NCBI GenBank assembly: GCA_039707465.1
Contig: CM077643.1
Location: forward strand, 332,526,419-332,590,418
Direction of reading: 5' to 3'
Length of the DNA stretch: 64,000 bases
Source: Rhabdophis nuchalis
Taxonomy: Eukaryota; Chordata; Lepidosauria; Squamata; Natricidae
In this document: one piece after another, positions 6,540 to 46,927 of the stretch
How positions within the stretch are numbered: the stretch's first letter is position 1
Layout: each line of letters opens with the position of its first letter
Made by a program: the position numbers and the translations under genes
The notes under the pieces: model-generated
What the model was told of the DNA's origin: nothing
The model's database searches: none
Seen by the model: the letters and a program-made list of their open reading frames with translations, nothing else

Positions 6540-7215
6540 TTTATTTAGGTAGAGGAATATAGAGAGAAGAAGAAATACAGTAGGTAGTTAGGTAAGTAGA
6601 GGGATAAACGAGAGGGATGAATACAGCAGGTACAGGTAGATAGGTACAGGTATATAGAGATACATACAATAGGTAGGTAGGTAGAGGGAGAGAGGGAAGA
6701 ATACAGTAGGTAGGTAGGTAGGTAGGTAGGTAGGTAGGTAGGTAGGTAGAGGGATAGTGGGAGAAATACACTAGGTAGGTAGGTAAGTACAGGGATAGAT
6801 AGAGAGGGAGAAATACAGTAGGTAGGTAGGTAGGTAGGTAGGTAGGTAGGTAGGTAGGTAGGTAGAGGGATAGATAGAGGGAGAAATACAGTAGGTAGGT
6901 AGGTAAGTACAGGGATAGATAGAGAGGGAGAAATACAGTAGGTAGGTAGAGGGATAGATAGAGGGAGAAATACAGTAGGTAGGTAGATAAATAGAGGGAT
7001 AGATAGAGAGTAAGAAATACAGTAGGTAGATAGGTAGGCAGGTACAGGGATAGATAGGGAGAAATACAATAGGTAGGTAGGGGGATGGATAGATAGATAG
7101 GGAGAAACACAGTAGGTAGGTAGGTAGGTAGAGGGATAGATAGGGAGAAATACAATAGGTAGGTAGGTAGGTAGAGGGATAGATAGGGAGAAATATAGTA
7201 GGTAGGTAGGTTGGG
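6540..7215. repeat. GGTA/GATA minisatellite with higher-order unit
   Basis: About a dozen units alternate runs of (GGTA)n with 'gagggatagata' and 'gggagaaatacagta'. Unit length varies with the number of GGTA copies. The same motif in reverse complement occurs in the Helitron at 62957-63482, so the repeat is part of the Helitron family rather than a chance local expansion. Confidence 0.85.
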
Positions 7216-7303
7216 GGTTATACGGTGGTTGTGTGTATGTGTGCAGATTGGTTGGCTATTTAACCAGACTGGGCCACAGCAACGCGTGGCCGGGTATAGC
7301 TAG

Positions 7304-21724: not shown

Positions 21725-24538
21725 CTATCCCAAGCCGGCCAGACGGAAAAAGTAGGTTTTCAATTTGAGACGGAAGGAGCGGAGGTCCGTGGTCGTCCTA
21801 ATATCGGGGGGAAGGTCGTTCCAGAGGGCCGGGCCCGCCACAGAGAGAGCCCTTCCCCTGGGTGTCGCCCGCTGACACAGTCTAGTGGACGGCACCCGGA
21901 GAAGCCCCGCTCTGTGGGAGCGAATCGGCCGTGAGGATGTATGGGGCAGGATCCGATCCTGCAGATAGCTAGGTCCCGAGCCATGGAGCGCTTTAAAGAT
22001 GATAATTAACACCTTGAAGCGCACCCGGAAGACGACAGGTAGCCAGTGCAGCTCGCGTAAGAGCGGTGTTACATGGGTGGACCTTGCGGTCCCCATAATT
22101 GCTCGCGCGGCTGCATTCTGGACTAGCTGAAGCCTCCGGGTGCACCTCAAGGGCAGCCCCATGTAGAGAGAGTTACAATAGTCCAGTCGGGATGTCACGA
22201 GAGCATGAGTGACTGTGCGAAGGGCGTCCAGATCCAATAGGGGGCGCAATTGGCGAACCAGGCGAACCTGGTAAAACGCCCTCCTGGCCACGGCTGTCAC
22301 TTGATCTTCCATGGACAGCCGGGCATCCAGGAGGACACCCAAATTGCGCACCCCATCCACAGGGGCAAGATGTTCGCCCCCTATGGCCAGCGATGGAGTG
22401 AGCTGGTTGAATCGGGCAGCCGGAAACCACAGCCACTCGGTCTTGGTCGGGTTGAGCTTGAGTCCGTTACTTCCCATCCAGATCCGTACAGCTTCCAGGC
22501 ACTGGCACATCACCGCTACGGCATCGTTGGGGTGGTTTGGGGTAGAAATGTACAGCTGTGTATCATCAGCGTACAGATGGTACTCTACCCCAAAACCACG
22601 GATGATCTCACCCAGCGGCTTCATGTATGTGTTGAACAGGAGGGGCGAGAGGACCGACCCCTGAGGCACCCCACATGCGAGGGGTCTCGCGGTCAACCTC
22701 TGCCCCCCTGCCAACACAAATTGCGATCGGCCAGAGAGGTAGGAGGAGAACCACCGTAAAACGGTGCCTCCCACCCCCAACCCCCCCAGCCGATGCAATA
22801 GGATACCATGGTCGATGGTATCGAAAGCCGCCGAGAGGTCTAATAGGACCAGGATGGAGGAACATCCCCCATCTCTGGCCCTCCAGAGATCATCGACCAA
22901 TGCGACCAATGCCGTCTCGGTGCTATGCCCGGGCCGAAAGCCGGACTGGCGCGGATCTAGATAATCAACTTCCTCCAGGTGACGGGGAAACTGTTGTGCC
23001 ACCACACTCTCAACAACCTTCGCCAAGAAGGGAAGGTTGGAGACTGGACGATAGTTGTTCAAAACAGCTGGATCCAAAGAGGGCTTCTTAAGGAGGGGCC
23101 TCACCATCGCTTCTTTTAGGGAAGCAGGCAAGGAACCCTCACTTAAGGATGCGTTGACAACCTCTTGGAGCCAGCCTCGTGTCACCTCCCAGGATGCCAG
23201 TACAAGCCAGGAGGGACACGGGTCCAATAAACATGTGGTGGCTCGCAGTCGCCCACGTAGCCTGTCCATATCCTCGGAAGTAACGGAGTCAAACTCCTCC
23301 CAAACAAGATCTCTCTCGTGGCATCCCACTGGGCCATGAATGGGGGCTAGCTCGTTCTGTATCTGAGCGATTTTCTCCTGCAGAAAAGTCACAAATTCCT
23401 CTGCTCTACCCTGTAACGGGGCTTCCCGCACCCTCTGTTGAAGGAGGGAGCGGGTCACCCTAAACAGGGCGGCAGGGCAGTTTTCTGCGGATGCTATGAG
23501 AGTAGCACAATGGTGACGTTTGGCCACTCTCAGCGCCACAATGTAAGTCCGTAAATGGGCTCTTACCTGTGTCCGGTCAGATTCAGATCGAGTAGACCTC
23601 CATCTTCTCTCTAGGCATCTCTTGCGGCGTTTCATCACCCTCAGCTCCTCGGAAAACCAAGGAGCCAGGGTGTTTCGCCGCCGCAAGAGAGGCCGCAAGG
23701 GCGCGACCCGATCCAAGGCTCCCGTGGTCGCAGTATTCCATGCGGCCACGAGGTCCTCCATCGGGGCGCGGGCCAGGGGTACAGGAAGTGGCCCAAGCGC
23801 CGTCTGGAACCCATCCGGGTCCATCAGGCGCCTGGGGCGGAACCAGATTGGTGACTCAGGTTCCGCCTCCCCGCGGAGGGGAGCAGCGGTCGGAAAGTCG
23901 AGCCGGAGAAGTGAGTGGTCTGTCCATGACAAAGGTGTGATGACTATATCCCCTATACCCAGATCACTCTTCCATTGGCCTGAGACAAAGATGAGATCCG
24001 GTGTATGTCCACCCTCGTGAGTGGGGCCTTGAATTAGTTGGGTCAGGTCCATGGCCGTCATGGAAGCCATGAACTCCCGAGCTGCCTCGGATGATTCGCC
24101 CACCGATGGCAGATTAAAGTCCCCCATGACTAAAAGTCTGGGGGTCTCAACTGCCACCGTAGCGATCACCTCGAGGAGCTCGGGCAGGGCTGCTGCTACA
24201 TAGCGGGGAGCCAGGTATACAACCAGCAAGCCCAACTGCCTCCCTAGGCCCCACTTCACACAGAGGGACTCACAACCGGTGGTCTGTGGCACAATGGTCT
24301 CTCTCGGCTCAAGACCTTCCTTTACAATGACCGCTACCCCACCGCCCCTACCTAGGGCCCGGGGCTGATGAAACGCGCGGTAACCTGGTGGGCACATTTC
24401 AACGAGGGGGAGTCCACCCTCGTGGCCCAACCAGGTCTCCGCAATTCCCACCAGGTCCGGCTCCCCCTCTGACACAAGGTCATGAACGAGGGGGGCTTTG
24501 TTGACAACGGACCTGGCGTTGCCAATATCATCCCATGT
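21725..24538 (-). CDS. L3/CR1 LINE ORF2: APE-type endonuclease plus reverse transcriptase
   Basis: The product nicks target DNA and reverse-transcribes LINE RNA from the nick in the nucleus. From the GTG at 24475 there are 916 codons; the same frame is open back to a TGA at 24539-24541, adding 21 codons that read 'GNARSVVNKAPLVHDL', a typical run-in to the endonuclease. Endonuclease marks, numbered from the GTG, are AETWL (12-16), GDFN (118-121), TPDLIF (158-163) and TDHS (185-188). RT marks are NNYRPVSNLP (473-482), SGFRPGHSTETA (511-522), AAFDTIDHGIL (549-559), GVPQGSVLSPLLF (602-614) and YADD (635-638). The C-terminal 'GPALWNDLPPDIRT' block recurs in the truncated copies. No ORF1, promoter or authentic start remains, so the frame is probably not expressed. 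All catalytic motifs I can place are intact. Confidence 0.9.
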   Translation of the reverse strand, partial: TWDDIGNARSVVNKAPLVHDLVSEGEPDLVGIAETWLGHEGGLPLVEMCPPGYRAFHQPRALGRGGGVAVIVKEGLEPRETIVPQTTGCESLCVKWGLGRQLGLLVVYLAPRYVAAALPELLEVIATVAVETPRLLVMGDFNLPSVGESSEAAREFMASMTAMDLTQLIQGPTHEGGHTPDLIFVSGQWKSDLGIGDIVITPLSWTDHSLLRLDFPTAAPLRGEAEPESPIWFRPRRLMDPDGFQTALGPLPVPLARAPMEDLVAAWNTATTGALDRVAPLRPLLRRRNTLAPWFSEELRVMKRRKRCLERRWRSTRSESDRTQVRAHLRTYIVALRVAKRHHCATLIASAENCPAALFRVTRSLLQQRVREAPLQGRAEEFVTFLQEKIAQIQNELAPIHGPVGCHERDLVWEEFDSVTSEDMDRLRGRLRATTCLLDPCPSWLVLASWEVTRGWLQEVVNASLSEGSLPASLKEAMVRPLLKKPSLDPAVLNNYRPVSNLPFLAKVVESVVAQQFPRHLEEVDYLDPRQSGFRPGHSTETALVALVDDLWRARDGGCSSILVLLDLSAAFDTIDHGILLHRLGGLGVGGTVLRWFSSYLSGRSQFVLAGGQRLTARPLACGVPQGSVLSPLLFNTYMKPLGEIIRGFGVEYHLYADDTQLYISTPNHPNDAVAVMCQCLEAVRIWMGSNGLKLNPTKTEWLWFPAARFNQLTPSLAIGGEHLAPVDGVRNLGVLLDARLSMEDQVTAVARRAFYQVRLVRQLRPLLDLDALRTVTHALVTSRLDYCNSLYMGLPLRCTRRLQLVQNAAARAIMGTARSTHVTPLLRELHWLPVVFRVRFKVLIIIFKALHGSGPSYLQDRILPHTSSRPIRSHRAGLLRVPSTRLCQRATPRGRALSVAGPALWNDLPPDIRTTTDLRSFRLKLKTYFFRLAGLG

Positions 24539-28859: not shown

Positions 28860-29115
28860 CAGTGGTGGGTTCTGGATCCTGTTGCAACTGGTACGTTGCA
28901 ACGGGGCTGGGCACCCACTGCGTCCACGTGCACGCATGACCACCCACGATGCTCCAGCTGCTTGGCGCTCTGTGCACGTGTGCAAATGCCCCAATTGGCT
29001 CAAATAGCAGTAAGGAGAGCAGGTGGGCGGGTGGACCCTCCAGAGCACCATACCGGAACGGTACCTGGTGCTCCCAGCAGGCATACCGGGGCATACCAAT
29101 TGTATCCCACCGCTG
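28860..29115 (+). mobile_element. hAT MITE (256 bp)
   Basis: Ends are CAGTGGTGGGTTCTGG and TTGTATCCCACCGCTG. The flanks GTCTGCAT (28852-28859) and ATCTGCAT (29116-29123) match at seven of eight bases. The interior is GC-rich with 'accggaacggtacc'. Confidence 0.88.
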
Positions 29116-29945: not shown

Positions 29946-30310
29946 GAAATGAGATTGTCTTTGCAACGTTTCAGCAAGATCTCACTTGATGTGATGACGT
30001 GATGATACCTCCCGCCTACCAGACATCTGGAAACCAGCACTGGCTAACAGATGAGCCCCACCCACCACCCAAACCATTGAAATACAAAATAAGGAGAAAC
30101 ACACAGATAGTACCAATCAACATCAATCTACCAATCATGATGCAACTGCATAGCCAATCAACCCGCTCATAGCAACAAAGTCAGCACTCCACCCCCCCCC
30201 CCCAAGATTTAAGGAAGGGCGGCATCTAAGCAGCCACAGACCGAAGCCTGAAGAAGGCAAGTGAGATCTTGCCGAAATGTTGCAAAGACAATCTCATTCT
30301 TACATGGGAA
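29946..30310 (+). mobile_element. Penelope-like inverted-repeat element with hammerhead-like end
   Basis: Inverted arms of about 45 bp (29948-29993, 30255-30300) surround unrelated interior sequence. At the right arm CTGAAGA (30248-30254), GGCAAG/CTTGCC (stem II, 6 bp) and GAAA (30274-30277) stand in hammerhead order. Stem I and stem III pair poorly. Penelope-like retroelements are known to carry minimal hammerhead motifs, and that is the most likely source. No coding sequence. Confidence 0.55.
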
Positions 30311-30336
30311 AACATCTGAATACAACAAGACCAGCA

Positions 30337-30402
30337 TACCTACACCCATGAAAATCTATGAATATATATATATATATTCATAGATTTTCATGGGTGTAGG
30401 TA
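30337..30402. repeat. perfect 66-bp palindrome
   Basis: The two 33-bp halves (30337-30369, 30370-30402) are exact reverse complements centred in an AT run. It begins 'tacctacacccatgaaaatc'. It follows the Penelope-like element and precedes a TATG array. Confidence 0.95.

Positions 30403-30450: not shown

Positions 30451-30480
<30 letters not shown>
30403..30480. repeat. (TATG)n microsatellite
   Basis: About 19 units with one TATA variant. It lies at the 3' end of the minus-strand hammerhead SINE, so it may be that SINE's expanded tail. Confidence 0.9.
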
Positions 30481-30481
<1 letters not shown>

Positions 30482-30782
30482 TTGTTTCACAACAACCTGT
30501 TAATAGGCCCCAATTAAGGGAGGAGACATACTGTTTCCTTTCCTGCCTTTCGGCTCATCACCAGAGACCATCTAGACAGCAAGCCAAGAATTACGTTGTG
30601 TAATTTTTTTTATGTGTGTTAGTTTTATGAGCTGATCAATAAATTAAATTAGAGGGACCAGGATAGATCTATTTCGAGCTTATTAGCTCTCATCAGCTGG
30701 CCATACCCTTTACTGGGATTCGAACCGGGACTGTATTGCATGCCAGGCAAGAAGCCTAGCACTTCAGCCACACCGGCTCCCC
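30480..30782 (-). mobile_element. tRNA-derived SINE carrying a hammerhead ribozyme, copy 1
   Basis: Read on the minus strand: a tRNA-like head begins at 30782 (GGGGAGCCGGTG), with an A-box-like TGGCTGAAGTGC (30759-30770) and a perfect B box GGTTCGAATCC (30716-30726). A linker (CCAGTAAAGGGTATGG) leads to the hammerhead (30656-30702). The body runs from 'attgatcagctcataaaac' to 'ggcctattaacaggttgttg' and ends in the (CATA)n tail. The body is shared with 38349-38575 and, inverted, with 30866-31005. Transcription would be by RNA polymerase III. The design parallels Schistosoma Sm-alpha, whose SINE RNA self-cleaves; I know of no named squamate family of this kind. Confidence 0.72.
30656..30702 (-). 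ncRNA. type I hammerhead ribozyme, all core bases present
   Basis: In order on the minus strand: stem I 5' strand GGCCAG, core CTGATGA (30696-30690), stem II GAGCT-AATA-AGCTC, core GAA with A15.1 (30675-30672), stem III ATA-GATC-TAT, C17 at 30662, stem I 3' strand CTGGTC (30661-30656). Stem I has six pairs, one G-U. Predicted cleavage is between 30662 and 30661. Stem III is only 3 bp with a GATC loop, as in minimal retroelement hammerheads, which often need dimerisation to work well. Confidence 0.82.
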
Positions 30783-30819
30783 TATTGCATCAGCTGAGAC
30801 AGGCTATATTAGTATAGGT

Positions 30820-31005
30820 AATTGTTTCACAACAACCTGTTAATAGGCCCCAATTAAGGGAGGAGCTTATTGATCAGCTCATAAAACTAACACACATATC
30901 TAAAAAAATTACACAACAAAATTCTTGGCTTGCTGTCTAGATGGTCTCTGGTGATGAGCCGAAAGGCAGGAAAGAAAACAGTATGTCTCCTCCCTTAATA
31001 TATTA
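30820..31005. mobile_element. rearranged partial copies of the hammerhead-SINE body
   Basis: 30820-30866 repeats 30480-30526 directly ('aacctgttaataggcccc'). 30866-31005 is the body in inverted orientation ('gatcagctcataaaactaac' to 'tatgtctcctcccttaa'). With copy 1 this makes a hairpin-forming array. No ribozyme core lies in this part. Confidence 0.7.
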
Positions 31006-31212
31006 AATTAAATTTCATTCAAGAGAGGCCTTTGCCTAACATGCATGTCCATGCAGCCACACCAAAAGCAAATACAGTGCTACAATGCTTCTAGGGACCC
31101 AAAGTTAACTTGTCACTTTTTCCATTTCACTGGAAGCCCAACCGGCACAAGGCTATGACATTCCATTTGCCTTAAGCTTCAAGACGAAGTTGATTTAATA
31201 TTTCATACTTAC

Positions 31213-31326
31213 CGCTCGTGGTTCAATTCCCATTTGCACTGGTTCAGTGACTGCCTTTGAATAGTTAATCCCTTTTCTGAATCCCATGTCATGAAAATGA
31301 GATGACAGTTCCTCACAAACTACTTT
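31213..31326 (-). CDS. candidate host-gene internal exon (38 codons)
   Basis: On the minus strand a pyrimidine-rich run ('ccttgcttttctaatctgtg') precedes AG at 31328-31327. The segment is open for exactly 38 codons in phase 0 (starts KVVCEELSSHFHDMGF, ends AVTEPVQMGIEPRA). It ends CGAGCG and is followed by the strong donor GTAAGT (31212-31207). The protein is not recognised and no partner exon was found. Against it: such patterns arise by chance in 64 kb. For it: unique-looking sequence, balanced composition, symmetric phase and consensus sites at both ends. Confidence 0.28.
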
Positions 31327-37957: not shown

Positions 37958-37959
<2 letters not shown>

Positions 37960-37960
<1 letters not shown>

Positions 37961-38110
37961 GGTCTTTGGTTGTTCGGGTTTTCTCCCGCGTAGAATTGGA
38001 AGTATCTTCACGACGTTTCGATGAAATCTCATTCATCATCTTCAGGCTGGTGCTTCGGGCTTGGTGCTTCCAGGAGCAATGGAAGCACCAAGCTTCCACC
38101 AATATATATA
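37960..38110 (-). mobile_element. Penelope-like terminus with hammerhead-like motif
   Basis: Minus strand: CTGAAGA, then GATGA...TCATC pairing, GAAA and CGTC (about 38043-38011), followed by 'cttccaattctacgcggg'. An extra T between the first core block and stem II departs from the canonical hammerhead. A 13-bp hairpin ('gcttggtgcttcc' with its complement) lies near 38069-38102. Confidence 0.5.
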
Positions 38111-38148
38111 TGTTAGATTTTTTGTAAGGGCTGATTTAATAAATAAGA

Positions 38149-38195
38149 GACCAGGATGGATCCATTTCGGGCTTATTAGCCTTCTTCAGCTGGCC
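38149..38195 (-). ncRNA. hammerhead ribozyme, copy 2
   Basis: Minus strand: GGCCAG, CTGAAGA, stem II GGCT-AATA-AGCC with an A-C mismatch at its base, GAA+A, stem III ATG-GATC-CAT, C17 at 38155, CTGGTC. All invariant core bases are present. Cleavage is predicted between 38155 and 38154. Confidence 0.75.
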
Positions 38196-38240
38196 TCATA
38201 TGCTGGAAAGCACCGGTTCAAATCCCAGTAGAAGGAGTAT

Positions 38241-38287
38241 GGCCAGCTGAAGAAGGCTAATAAGCCTGAAATGGATCCATCCTGGTC
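38241..38287 (+). ncRNA. hammerhead ribozyme, copy 3
   Basis: GGCCAG (38241-38246), CTGAAGA (38247-38253), stem II AGGCT-AATA-AGCCT, GAA+A (38268-38271), stem III ATG-GATC-CAT, C17 at 38281, CTGGTC (38282-38287). Relative to copy 1, stem II changes GAGCT/AGCTC to AGGCT/AGCCT and stem III changes ATA/TAT to ATG/CAT, so pairing is kept by paired substitutions. Confidence 0.82.
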
Positions 38288-38348
38288 TCTTTATTTTCAG
38301 CCCTTAAAAATCTAACACACACACACACACACACATATATATGTATAT

Positions 38349-38575
38349 GTAATTGTTTCATAACAACCTGTTATTAGGCCCCAATTAAGGGAGGAGACAT
38401 ACTGTTTCCTTTCCTGCCTTTCGGCTCATCACCAGAGACCATCTAGACAGCAAGCCAAGAATTACGTTGTGTAATTTTTTTAGATATGTGTGTTAGTTTT
38501 ATGATCTAATTTAATTTATTGATCAGCTCATAAAACTAACACACACACACACACACACACATAGATAATTGTTTT
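38349..38575 (-). mobile_element. hammerhead-SINE body copy without ribozyme
   Basis: Nearly identical to 30480-30640 ('ctgcctttcggctcatcacc', 'gacagcaagccaagaattac') and joined at 'tttatgatctaatttaattt' to an inverted tail piece with (AC)n. The head and ribozyme are missing. Confidence 0.65.
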
Positions 38576-44509: not shown

Positions 44510-45505
44510 CATTCTGATAATATCCAGCTTTATATCTCCATCTCAGGCTCCCTGAACAATGCAGTTCATGTCTTCTTCTCAGTGACTGGAGGCTATAAGC
44601 GACTGGATGGGATGCAATGGGCTTCAAATCAACTCAAACAAAACAGACTGGTATTTGAACCTCTTGGTGACAAGGTTTTTCCACCTCTAGTCCTGGATAG
44701 GGTGGCACTGTCCCAGACAAACCCAATTTCCCAGTGTGGTGTACAGACTGGGACATTTCTTACACTCATGATTCTTACTAGCACAGCAGGGGAACCCATG
44801 ACCAGGAGGCTGTTTGCCCACCTTAGAGTAGTACACCAGTTTCTTTCATTCCTGGATCAGGAGGCTTTACTCATAGTCACTCATGTCTTCATGACATCTC
44901 ATTTGGATTATTGCAAGGTGCTCTATGTGGGGTTGCCCTTGAAGAACATTTGGAAACTTCAATTGGTGCAGAATCTGACTATATGAGTAGTAAAGAGAGT
45001 GTGATATTCATGAGTTTCATTGGTTGTCTATTTGTTTCCAGGTACAATTAATGTTACTTATCACCTTGGGATCAGGTTACTTAAGAGAACCATCTTTTCC
45101 CAGTTTTGTCTACCCATCTAAATTAGTCAGGCAAGTTGGTCATGTTGTGAGTCCCCTCAACCAAGAAATGTTGGCTGGTGAGAACCAGGAGGCATGGCTT
45201 CATGTTGTAATCCCTGTCTCCTGGAATCATTTCCCTTCAGATATCAGGATGTCCCCAACTCTGATGACCTCTCACATATCTGTGGACACTTAGTTGCAGG
45301 CTTAGGTCGGGGGGGGGGTTGTTCAAGGGCCCTATGTCTTCTCTGTATTAATATCCATAACCACAGTTTTACTTGGTGCCCTATATATTTATTTTGTACT
45401 GTTTTGATCCTTTTAATAATTTTAATAGTAGTTTATCGTCGTTTTTATGTTTTATCATGTATACCACCTAGAGTCACGTTGAGATGGACAGCTACAGTAT
45501 AGAAT
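44510..45505 (+). pseudogene. old L3/CR1 LINE RT and C-terminus
   Basis: Plus-strand frames give 'MTSHLDYCKVLYVGLPLKN' with 'WKLQLVQNLT', parallel to 'VTSRLDYCNSLYMGLPLRC' of the intact L3. Upstream 'DNIQLYISISGSLNNAV' parallels the stretch after YADD. The 3' UTR ends 'ataccacctagagtcacgtt'. Several stops. Its 3' end abuts the split SINE. Confidence 0.75.
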
Positions 45506-46357: not shown

Positions 46358-46927
46358 CCGCCCATCTATCACTCTGTGTTTGTGTGTGTGTGTGTCTGTC
46401 TCGCATTCACGCACTTAATCACTTTCTGCATCTCTCTCTTTCTCTCCCTCCCTCCCTCTCTGTCTCTGTGTGTGTGTCTGTCACTCTCTGATTCCCCCCT
46501 CCGCTCGGCCTTTGAAGCCTGCCGGCTAGGGGCAGCAGAACAAGAGCGCGCTAAGCTGCGCAAACCCCCACCCCACCCCCCGCCACTCGCGGCAAAACTT
46601 TCCCTGTTCCCACACACACACACACGCTTCTCAGCTGCAGGCGGCCGGGCGGCGGGGAGGCAGGCTAAGGTGAGTGAGCACAGCGGCCCCGGGATGAAGA
46701 GGCTCCGCGGGGGACGGGCGGGCGGGCGGACACGACGACAGACAGACAGAGAGAGGCACAGACACAGAGAGAGACAGGGAGTGGAGGGGGGAATCAGAGA
46801 GTGACAGACACACACACAGAGACAGAGAGGGAGGGAGGGAGAGAAAGAGAGAGACGCAGAAAGTGATTAAGTGCGTGAATGCGAGACAGACACACACACA
46901 CACAAACACAGAGTGATAGATGGGCGG
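46358..46927. repeat. near-perfect 145-bp inverted repeat with 279-bp spacer
   Basis: The left arm 46358-46503 and right arm 46783-46927 are reverse complements with about two mismatches in 145 bp, including non-repetitive parts ('cgcattcacgcacttaatca'). The spacer is GC-rich. The structure could extrude as a cruciform or give a long RNA hairpin. Confidence 0.93.

Follow-up and report, generated by a model that had tools for sequence, protein, structure and literature searches.

A candidate retrozyme-type SINE joining a tRNA-like head to a type I hammerhead ribozyme in a snake genome

A 64,000-nucleotide stretch from Rhabdophis nuchalis (GenBank assembly GCA_039707465.1, contig CM077643.1, positions 332,526,419 to 332,590,418 of the forward strand; hereafter the window) carries a repeat unit of about 340 nt in which a tRNA-like head is joined to a complete hammerhead ribozyme. 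The reading that we favor, with moderate confidence, is that this unit is a non-autonomous squamate retroelement of the retrozyme type, in which a tRNA-Ala-like polymerase III promoter is combined with a type I hammerhead and which would spread by the full mechanism proposed below. Judged from its sequence, the first locus (copy 1) is a real element and very likely a member of a real family, whose ribozyme seems to have been maintained; we read this family as a squamate, probably snake, tRNA-SINE of the retrozyme type. Elements of this kind are already known; no account of a squamate element that combines a tRNA-Ala-like promoter with a canonical hammerhead and Penelope-like junctions was found in the open-access literature.

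Results

Copy 1 carries a head, a linker, a ribozyme and a repeat-derived tail on the minus strand

The first-pass annotation of the window had proposed a tRNA-promoter SINE with a complete hammerhead ribozyme, built of a tRNA-like head, a linker, the ribozyme and a repeat-derived tail in this order on one strand. All four parts are present in copy 1 on the minus strand, with the head at 30777-30715 followed by the linker, the hammerhead at 30711-30651 and the tail from 30653. The proposal of such a SINE-like unit in a squamate is upheld, and a second locus repeats the B box, linker and ribozyme. The proposed arrangement of the element stood as well, but the start of its head, placed at 30782, had to be corrected to 30777.

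The head (30715-30777, minus strand) corresponds to tRNA positions 1-63. Both promoter boxes are at their exact tRNA positions, the A box (30770-30759) at 8 and the B box (30726-30716), which is perfect, at 52, and the 44 nt between them equal the spacing in tRNA genes. A pair of A and B boxes spaced by 30-60 nt was found in none of 400 dinucleotide shuffles of the window. Read by hand, positions 28-31 of the head can pair with 39-42 round a 7-nt loop in the manner of an anticodon arm, with one pair open, and four of the seven acceptor stem pairs are possible, one of them a G-U pair. When the head was aligned with 18 human tRNA sequences, the best scores were obtained for Ala-AGC (z 7.1), Cys-GCA (z 6.6) and Gly-GCC (z 6.0). 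ARAGORN with the bacterial code reported no tRNA at the head and Rfam listed no tRNA match for it at E ≤ 10, therefore its tRNA origin rests on the boxes, their spacing and the tRNA alignment. B-box-like sites with two to three mismatches also occur at 44646-44661, 31220-31235 and 28997-29012, and no hammerhead model match stands out at these sites.

The unit has a GC content of 43.2%, and no closed stop-to-stop frame of at least 110 aa was found in 30480-30999; in particular, no frame of this length in the element could represent the reverse transcriptase plus GIY-YIG protein of Penelope-like elements. A protein search with the unit translated in one frame per strand gave no candidate sharing three words, and otherwise four candidates, none at E ≤ 1.

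The ribozyme of copy 1 has a complete hammerhead core

The type I hammerhead of copy 1 (30651-30711, minus strand; core structure 30702-30656) contains all invariant core bases, namely CUGANGA, GAA, the A15.1-U16.1 pair and H17. Stem I is formed by 30702-30697 with 30661-30656 and is followed by the core motif CTGATGA (30696-30690), stem II (30689-30686 with 30679-30676), GAA (30675-30673), stem III (30672-30669 with 30666-30663) and C17 at 30662. Cleavage is predicted between 30662 and 30661, so that the computed position of the 5'-OH end, 30661, agrees with that given in the first-pass annotation. A stem I internal bulge GUAU and a loop II UAAUAA complete the structure; both, the candidate partners of a tertiary contact, are the same in copy 1 and in the direct ribozyme of the second locus.

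A strict descriptor (CTGATGA, stem II of at least 4 bp, GAA, stem III of at least 3 bp, U16.1, H17 and stem I of at least 5 bp) matched no site of the window but that of copy 1, and dinucleotide shuffling of the window gave one match in 300 shuffles. Looser patterns were less selective: CTGATGA with GAAA occurred three times against 2.06 expected, and a CTGAWGA core with stem II matched two sites against six in 200 shuffles. The folding energy of the 56-nt hammerhead piece is ordinary (z -1.28, 25 of 200 shuffles equally good), and the complete 340-nt unit folds better than its shuffles (z -2.82, 1 of 100 equally good). The nearest Rfam family is the amniote Hammerhead_HH9 (RF02275), which matched copy 1 over the full model with 31.1 bits (E 2.5e-5 in 2 kb) but below its gathering score of 52, a database threshold rather than a property of ribozymes; the window has no matches at the curated thresholds. 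We take HH9 to be an intronic, non-mobile hammerhead motif.

A second locus repeats the B box, linker and ribozyme

The finding of other copies that share the head and the ribozyme had been named as one of the points on which the proposal turned. Such a second copy is present in the window, although its head is reduced to the 3' portion. In the plus-strand part of this locus (copy 2, 38109-38333), which spans 38209-38333, the head is represented by its end and the B box GGTTCAAATCC (38215-38225), followed by the linker, a hammerhead (38232-38292) and an AC-rich tail with (CA)n; it has no A box, and TTTT follows its ribozyme. A second hammerhead with a tail lies on the minus strand at 38109-38195, inverted relative to that at 38232-38292 and overlapping with it in sequence. 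The inverted ribozyme occupies 38195-38144, and its first stem II pair is an A.C mismatch. The Rfam HH9 model scored 28.3 and 20.1 bits at this locus. The core of copy 2, CTGAAGA, differs from that of copy 1 only at position 7, which is variable in the hammerhead consensus CUGANGA (PMC8490949).

When a covariance model was built from the three ribozyme instances, 23 matches were listed in the window and only these three stand out, the next-best match reaching 12.9 bits (E 0.21). The family thus has two loci in the 64-kb window. No two hammerheads in direct tandem were seen at the two loci; what is repeated directly, at 340 bp, is a segment named R below, whose copies flank one hammerhead.

Differences between the ribozymes preserve their pairing

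Over 61 nt, 11 positions distinguish the ribozyme of copy 1 from the direct one of copy 2. Eight of these differences make up four compensatory pairs, one in outer stem I, two in stem II and one in stem III, and the remaining three are a change at the free core position N7, a change from A-U to G-U and a change that turns an A.C mismatch into A-U. None of the pairs is lost, and the invariant core bases are all unchanged. In a random placement test with 11 changes and the transition count kept, at least four compensatory pairs were reached by 28 of 1,000,000 placements, and all conditions of the test together by 1 of 1,000,000. The five outer stem I pairs entered this test after both sequences had been seen, and the test was repeated without them: in the 47-nt core structure alone, three compensatory pairs among seven differences were reached by 22 of 1,000,000 placements and all conditions by 5 of 1,000,000.

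The same pattern was examined in all three ribozyme sequences. The three stems, open at stem I, contain 19 pairs, and 96.2% of the 52 cells are paired across the three instances. A pair counter found four pairs changed on both sides, and slid versions gave none in five of six cases and one in the other. The covariation score of the three sequences is modest, being reached by 21 of 500 column shuffles. The compensatory pairs together with the absence of broken pairs argue for a family rather than a chance neighbor, and for source copies that were probably under ribozyme constraint. The evidence that the source copies were kept as ribozymes is good but not overwhelming, and it suggests that the ribozyme mattered while the element was spreading.

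A further feature of the ribozymes is the 10-nt palindrome of stem III, which is perfect in both copies (ATAGATCTAT and ATGGATCCAT). Unconstrained two-strand folding of the 61-nt ribozyme predicts for both copies a dimeric hammerhead in which stem III is intermolecular and 10 bp long. The predicted energy gain upon dimerization is unusual for copy 2 (2 of 300 shuffles equally good). For copy 1 it is ordinary (111 of 300), which gives no support to a special tendency of this copy to dimerize. For amphibian retrozymes, better performance of the hammerhead in dimeric form has been reported (PMC7229834).

The unit is flanked by direct and inverted repeats with AC-rich ends

Three segments follow the ribozyme in copy 1 on the minus strand, and we refer to them as T, Y and R. 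Segment T (30612-30653) ends in the AC-rich motif CTAACACACA. Segment Y (30528-30611) is known in three copies, the other two being at 38481-38399 (100% over 83) and, inverted, at 30902-30984 (96.4% over 83). Segment R (30480-30527) runs into a (CATA)n microsatellite, and an upstream copy of R at 30815-30865, also on the minus strand, is a direct repeat of 30475-30525 at a distance of 340 bp with one difference in 51. Upstream of this copy, an inverted copy of part of T, of Y and of the start of R (30867-30999, plus strand; 95.5% over 133 columns) forms the 5' end of the insertion. Along the minus strand, copy 1 therefore consists of the inverted piece (30999-30867), R (30865-30815), a spacer (30778-30814), the head, the ribozyme, T, Y, R (30527-30480) and (CATA)n. 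Beside copy 2, a T-Y-R segment is located at 38351-38510 on the minus strand, with an inverted T at 38505-38545.

The AC-rich motif CTAACAYA occurs ten times in the window, six of them at the two loci, where three pass directly into a dinucleotide microsatellite and three into segment Y. Two of the three R ends enter a simple repeat and one enters the spacer and head. These distributions suggest that there are two preferred sites at which insertions end; the simple-repeat tails at their ends are (CA)n, (TA)n and (CATA)n. Copy 1 spans both sides of the cleavage site and has R at both ends, as would be expected if its template had been circular or a multimer that was not cut, but not if it had been a linear monomer released by cleavage. 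With its 340-bp direct repeat, inverted pieces and AC-rich ends running into microsatellites, the unit resembles Penelope-like elements and metazoan retrozymes in arrangement.

Probable Penelope-like termini adjoin both loci

The two ribozyme loci are directly adjoined by two probable Penelope-like termini, which are neighbors and lie outside the SINE. The first (29948-30402, plus strand) contains a minimal hammerhead-like motif, an inverted arm and a palindromic end; this end, at 30337-30402, is perfect and has 33-nt arms. The second is located at 37958-38113 on the minus strand and joins the tail of copy 2 with its first bases, and a short perfect hairpin is found in it at 38059-38093 (14-nt arms, 7 nt between them). 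The two termini are homologous to each other, as none of 20000 shuffles gave an equally good match. The first-pass annotation had suggested that the ribozyme perhaps came from a Penelope-like element. This origin is not supported, as the nearby termini carry a different, minimal motif and sequence comparison found no similarity of the SINE to either of them.

The termini were also compared with PAc, a Penelope-like element of Anolis. For the first terminus, 31, 46 and 27 of 200 shuffles were equally good against three PAc pieces, and anchored comparison gave 9 of 1000 with gaps and 6506 of 20000 without gaps; the corresponding values for the second terminus were 2, 4 and 164 of 200, 318 of 1000 and 2925 of 20000. 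The PAc match of the termini is thus weak and method-dependent in sequence, and because the comparisons disagree, the label Penelope-like rests on the motif and the arrangement more than on the match. Homology between the SINE unit itself and PAc, which had been suspected by eye, was rejected, since 15 to 130 of 200 shuffles were equally good in nine comparisons.

Several other repeats are present in the window. A possibly young LINE at 21725-24538 (minus strand) has an open frame of 937 aa with endonuclease and reverse transcriptase domains. The frame has 276 protein matches, and the named relatives among the 120 listed are mostly squamates. Among the matches listed, the best scores belong to lizards (Varanus, Podarcis and Anolis). 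Identity is highest for snake proteins that match part of the query (Pituophis 83% over 22%, Erythrolamprus 71% over 50% and Ahaetulla 68% over 53%), in line with a snake as the likely host. A diverged internal repeat array at 6546-7217 shows self-matches of 73-78% at several offsets and several open minus-strand frames. An inverted pair of 149 bp with 98.7% identity lies at 46358-46506 and 46779-46927, its arms 272 bp apart.

Copies elsewhere and comparison with known elements

A scan of viral contigs with five unit patterns and the LINE protein gave no copies, and one unit pattern in genome contigs matched six stretches, all in bacterial records and none with an adjoining hammerhead core within the stretch, where by our estimate about seven chance matches were expected; both collections contain hardly any reptile DNA. 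In the open-access literature that was searched, no description of a squamate SINE with a hammerhead was found. The word ribozyme does not occur in the main texts of the squamate-repeat papers examined, including PMC10702118 and PMC7983390.

Hammerhead SINEs or retrozymes have been reported from flatworms, molluscs, corals and amphibians (PMC7761336, PMC7229834, PMC8490949). The Sm-alpha and Sj-alpha elements of Schistosoma (Ferbeyre 1998; Laha 2000, cited in PMC8490949) are likewise SINE-like, similar in size and equipped with a type I hammerhead, and W36.2_W001, which is similar to Sm-alpha, has 335 bp (PMC8490949). Their hosts are flatworms, whereas the present unit is from a squamate, and the likeness is one of description. 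Sm-alpha has a polymerase III promoter.

Metazoan non-LTR retrozymes share with the unit the type I hammerhead, a GC content below 45% and the absence of a protein (PMC7229834, PMC7761336). Their RNAs are about 170-400 nt, they form tandem units of about 300 bp, to which the direct repeat around the hammerhead of copy 1 may correspond, Penelope-like elements are a candidate partner, and the amphibian retrozymes are said to need dimers (PMC7229834, PMC7761336). It has been stated that they could be regarded as a novel SINE family, and that animal retrozymes have no conserved motif revealing the partner retrotransposon (PMC7761336). Unlike for the snake unit, no tRNA-like promoter is described in the accounts of these elements that were consulted (PMC7229834, PMC7761336), and the main text of PMC7229834 contains no occurrence of SINE, polymerase III, Pol II, reptil, lizard or snake.

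Penelope-like elements such as Anolis PAc also have a hammerhead, tandem or partial-tandem copies and an AC-rich site of reverse transcription; for PAc, the start of reverse transcription lies within an AC-rich stem-loop (PMC11167929). In contrast to the unit, they encode a reverse transcriptase plus GIY-YIG protein and carry a minimal hammerhead (PMC11167929), and the unit has no significant similarity to PAc. Tandem polymerase III repeats of amphibians are similar in size, tandem and contain a tRNA-like sequence, with PolIII/TAN of Cynops at about 360 nt, Rana/polIII at about 250 nt and Hy/polIII, whose tRNA-like sequence has been doubted, at about 200 nt (PMC10702118). They differ in their amphibian hosts, their source has no mention of a ribozyme in its main text (PMC10702118), and they too are likened by description. 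The squamate SINEs Squam1 (Sauria), Squam2 and Squam3 likewise have tRNA-related heads, about 190-350 nt and the same hosts, and are set apart by the description of their tails, among which An, (AC2T3)n, (TA3)n and (CT2)n are named and neither (CA)n nor (CATA)n (PMC10702118, PMC7983390). Tandem duplications have been described inside Squam1 and Squam3 (PMC10702118).

Discussion

From the anatomy of the unit we infer its transcription, cutting, closing and partner alike. Polymerase III would start at the tRNA-like head and read through tandem units, which is possible since copy 1 has no TTTT within 340 nt from the start of the head. The hammerhead would then cut the multimers, perhaps as a dimer held by the palindromic stem III, and a host ligase may close the monomers into circles; the RtcB ligase closes axolotl and mussel retrozyme RNA in vitro (PMC7229834). 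A Penelope-like reverse transcriptase, by analogy the likely partner, would copy uncut or circular RNA from the AC-rich site and leave tandem and inverted pieces behind. Caution on this mechanism comes from the insertion of PAc in vitro, for which cutting is not needed (PMC11167929). Further evidence against the full mechanism is that the two loci come from one window, that copy 2 lacks an A box and has TTTT after its ribozyme, and that no two hammerheads were seen in direct tandem.

The SINE anatomy of the unit could also be that of an ordinary tRNA-derived SINE that captured a hammerhead once and carries it along as a relic, while a LINE partner spreads the copies without cleavage. LINE insertions can carry inversions, which agrees with such a course; repeated AC-rich ends are, to our knowledge, not known as LINE tails. 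Several squamate tRNA-SINEs are moved by LINEs and have internal tandem duplications (PMC10702118, PMC7983390), and mutation of the PAc hammerhead left insertion in vitro unaltered (PMC11167929). Because they also occur inside other squamate SINE families, tandem duplications alone do not point to a retrozyme (PMC10702118), and for this reason we gave less weight to the retrozyme mechanism and more to a LINE partner. Still, the four compensatory pairs and a core that is intact in diverged copies speak for maintenance of the structure. The LINE frame of the window was not matched when 30471-31020 served as the query, and we regard a relic spread by a LINE as unlikely, although it deserves to be taken seriously.

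The two remaining explanations turn on the surroundings of the ribozyme and on chance. The unit could be a non-autonomous Penelope-like element that underwent an internal deletion and gained a tRNA-like promoter in its pseudo-LTR, with R as the pseudo-LTR and T-Y as a remnant of the coding region. Such a descent agrees with the two R copies that flank the head and ribozyme, with the inverted pieces and AC-rich end and with the Penelope-like termini that adjoin both loci, but T, Y, R and the ribozyme have no detectable similarity to PAc or to these termini and the ribozyme is a canonical hammerhead, larger than the minimal one of Penelope-like elements; we consider this descent improbable. That a tRNA-like piece and a hammerhead-like piece came to lie side by side by chance is already largely refuted and hardly credible: what speaks for it is that there are two loci only, that no tRNA model matches and that the bare core motif is ordinary in the window, against the single strict descriptor match in 300 shuffles, the lack of an A and B box pair in 400, and the B box, linker and ribozyme joined at two diverged loci with compensatory changes between them.

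A retroelement of the retrozyme type with its own polymerase III promoter is the reading we retain. A bolder version of it, which we put forward tentatively and consider rather unlikely as a whole, is that the family is the first polymerase III retrozyme of amniotes: a tRNA-Ala SINE whose tandem read-through transcripts would be cut by paired hammerheads, circularized at a length of about 340 nt and integrated by the reverse transcriptase of a Penelope-like element, with a ribozyme of the lineage that amniotes would have domesticated as the intronic HH9. If a squamate family does combine a tRNA promoter of its own with junctions in the Penelope style, it would be a concrete case in which to test promoter, ribozyme and partner together, and it could bear on the origin of the conserved hammerheads in amniote introns.
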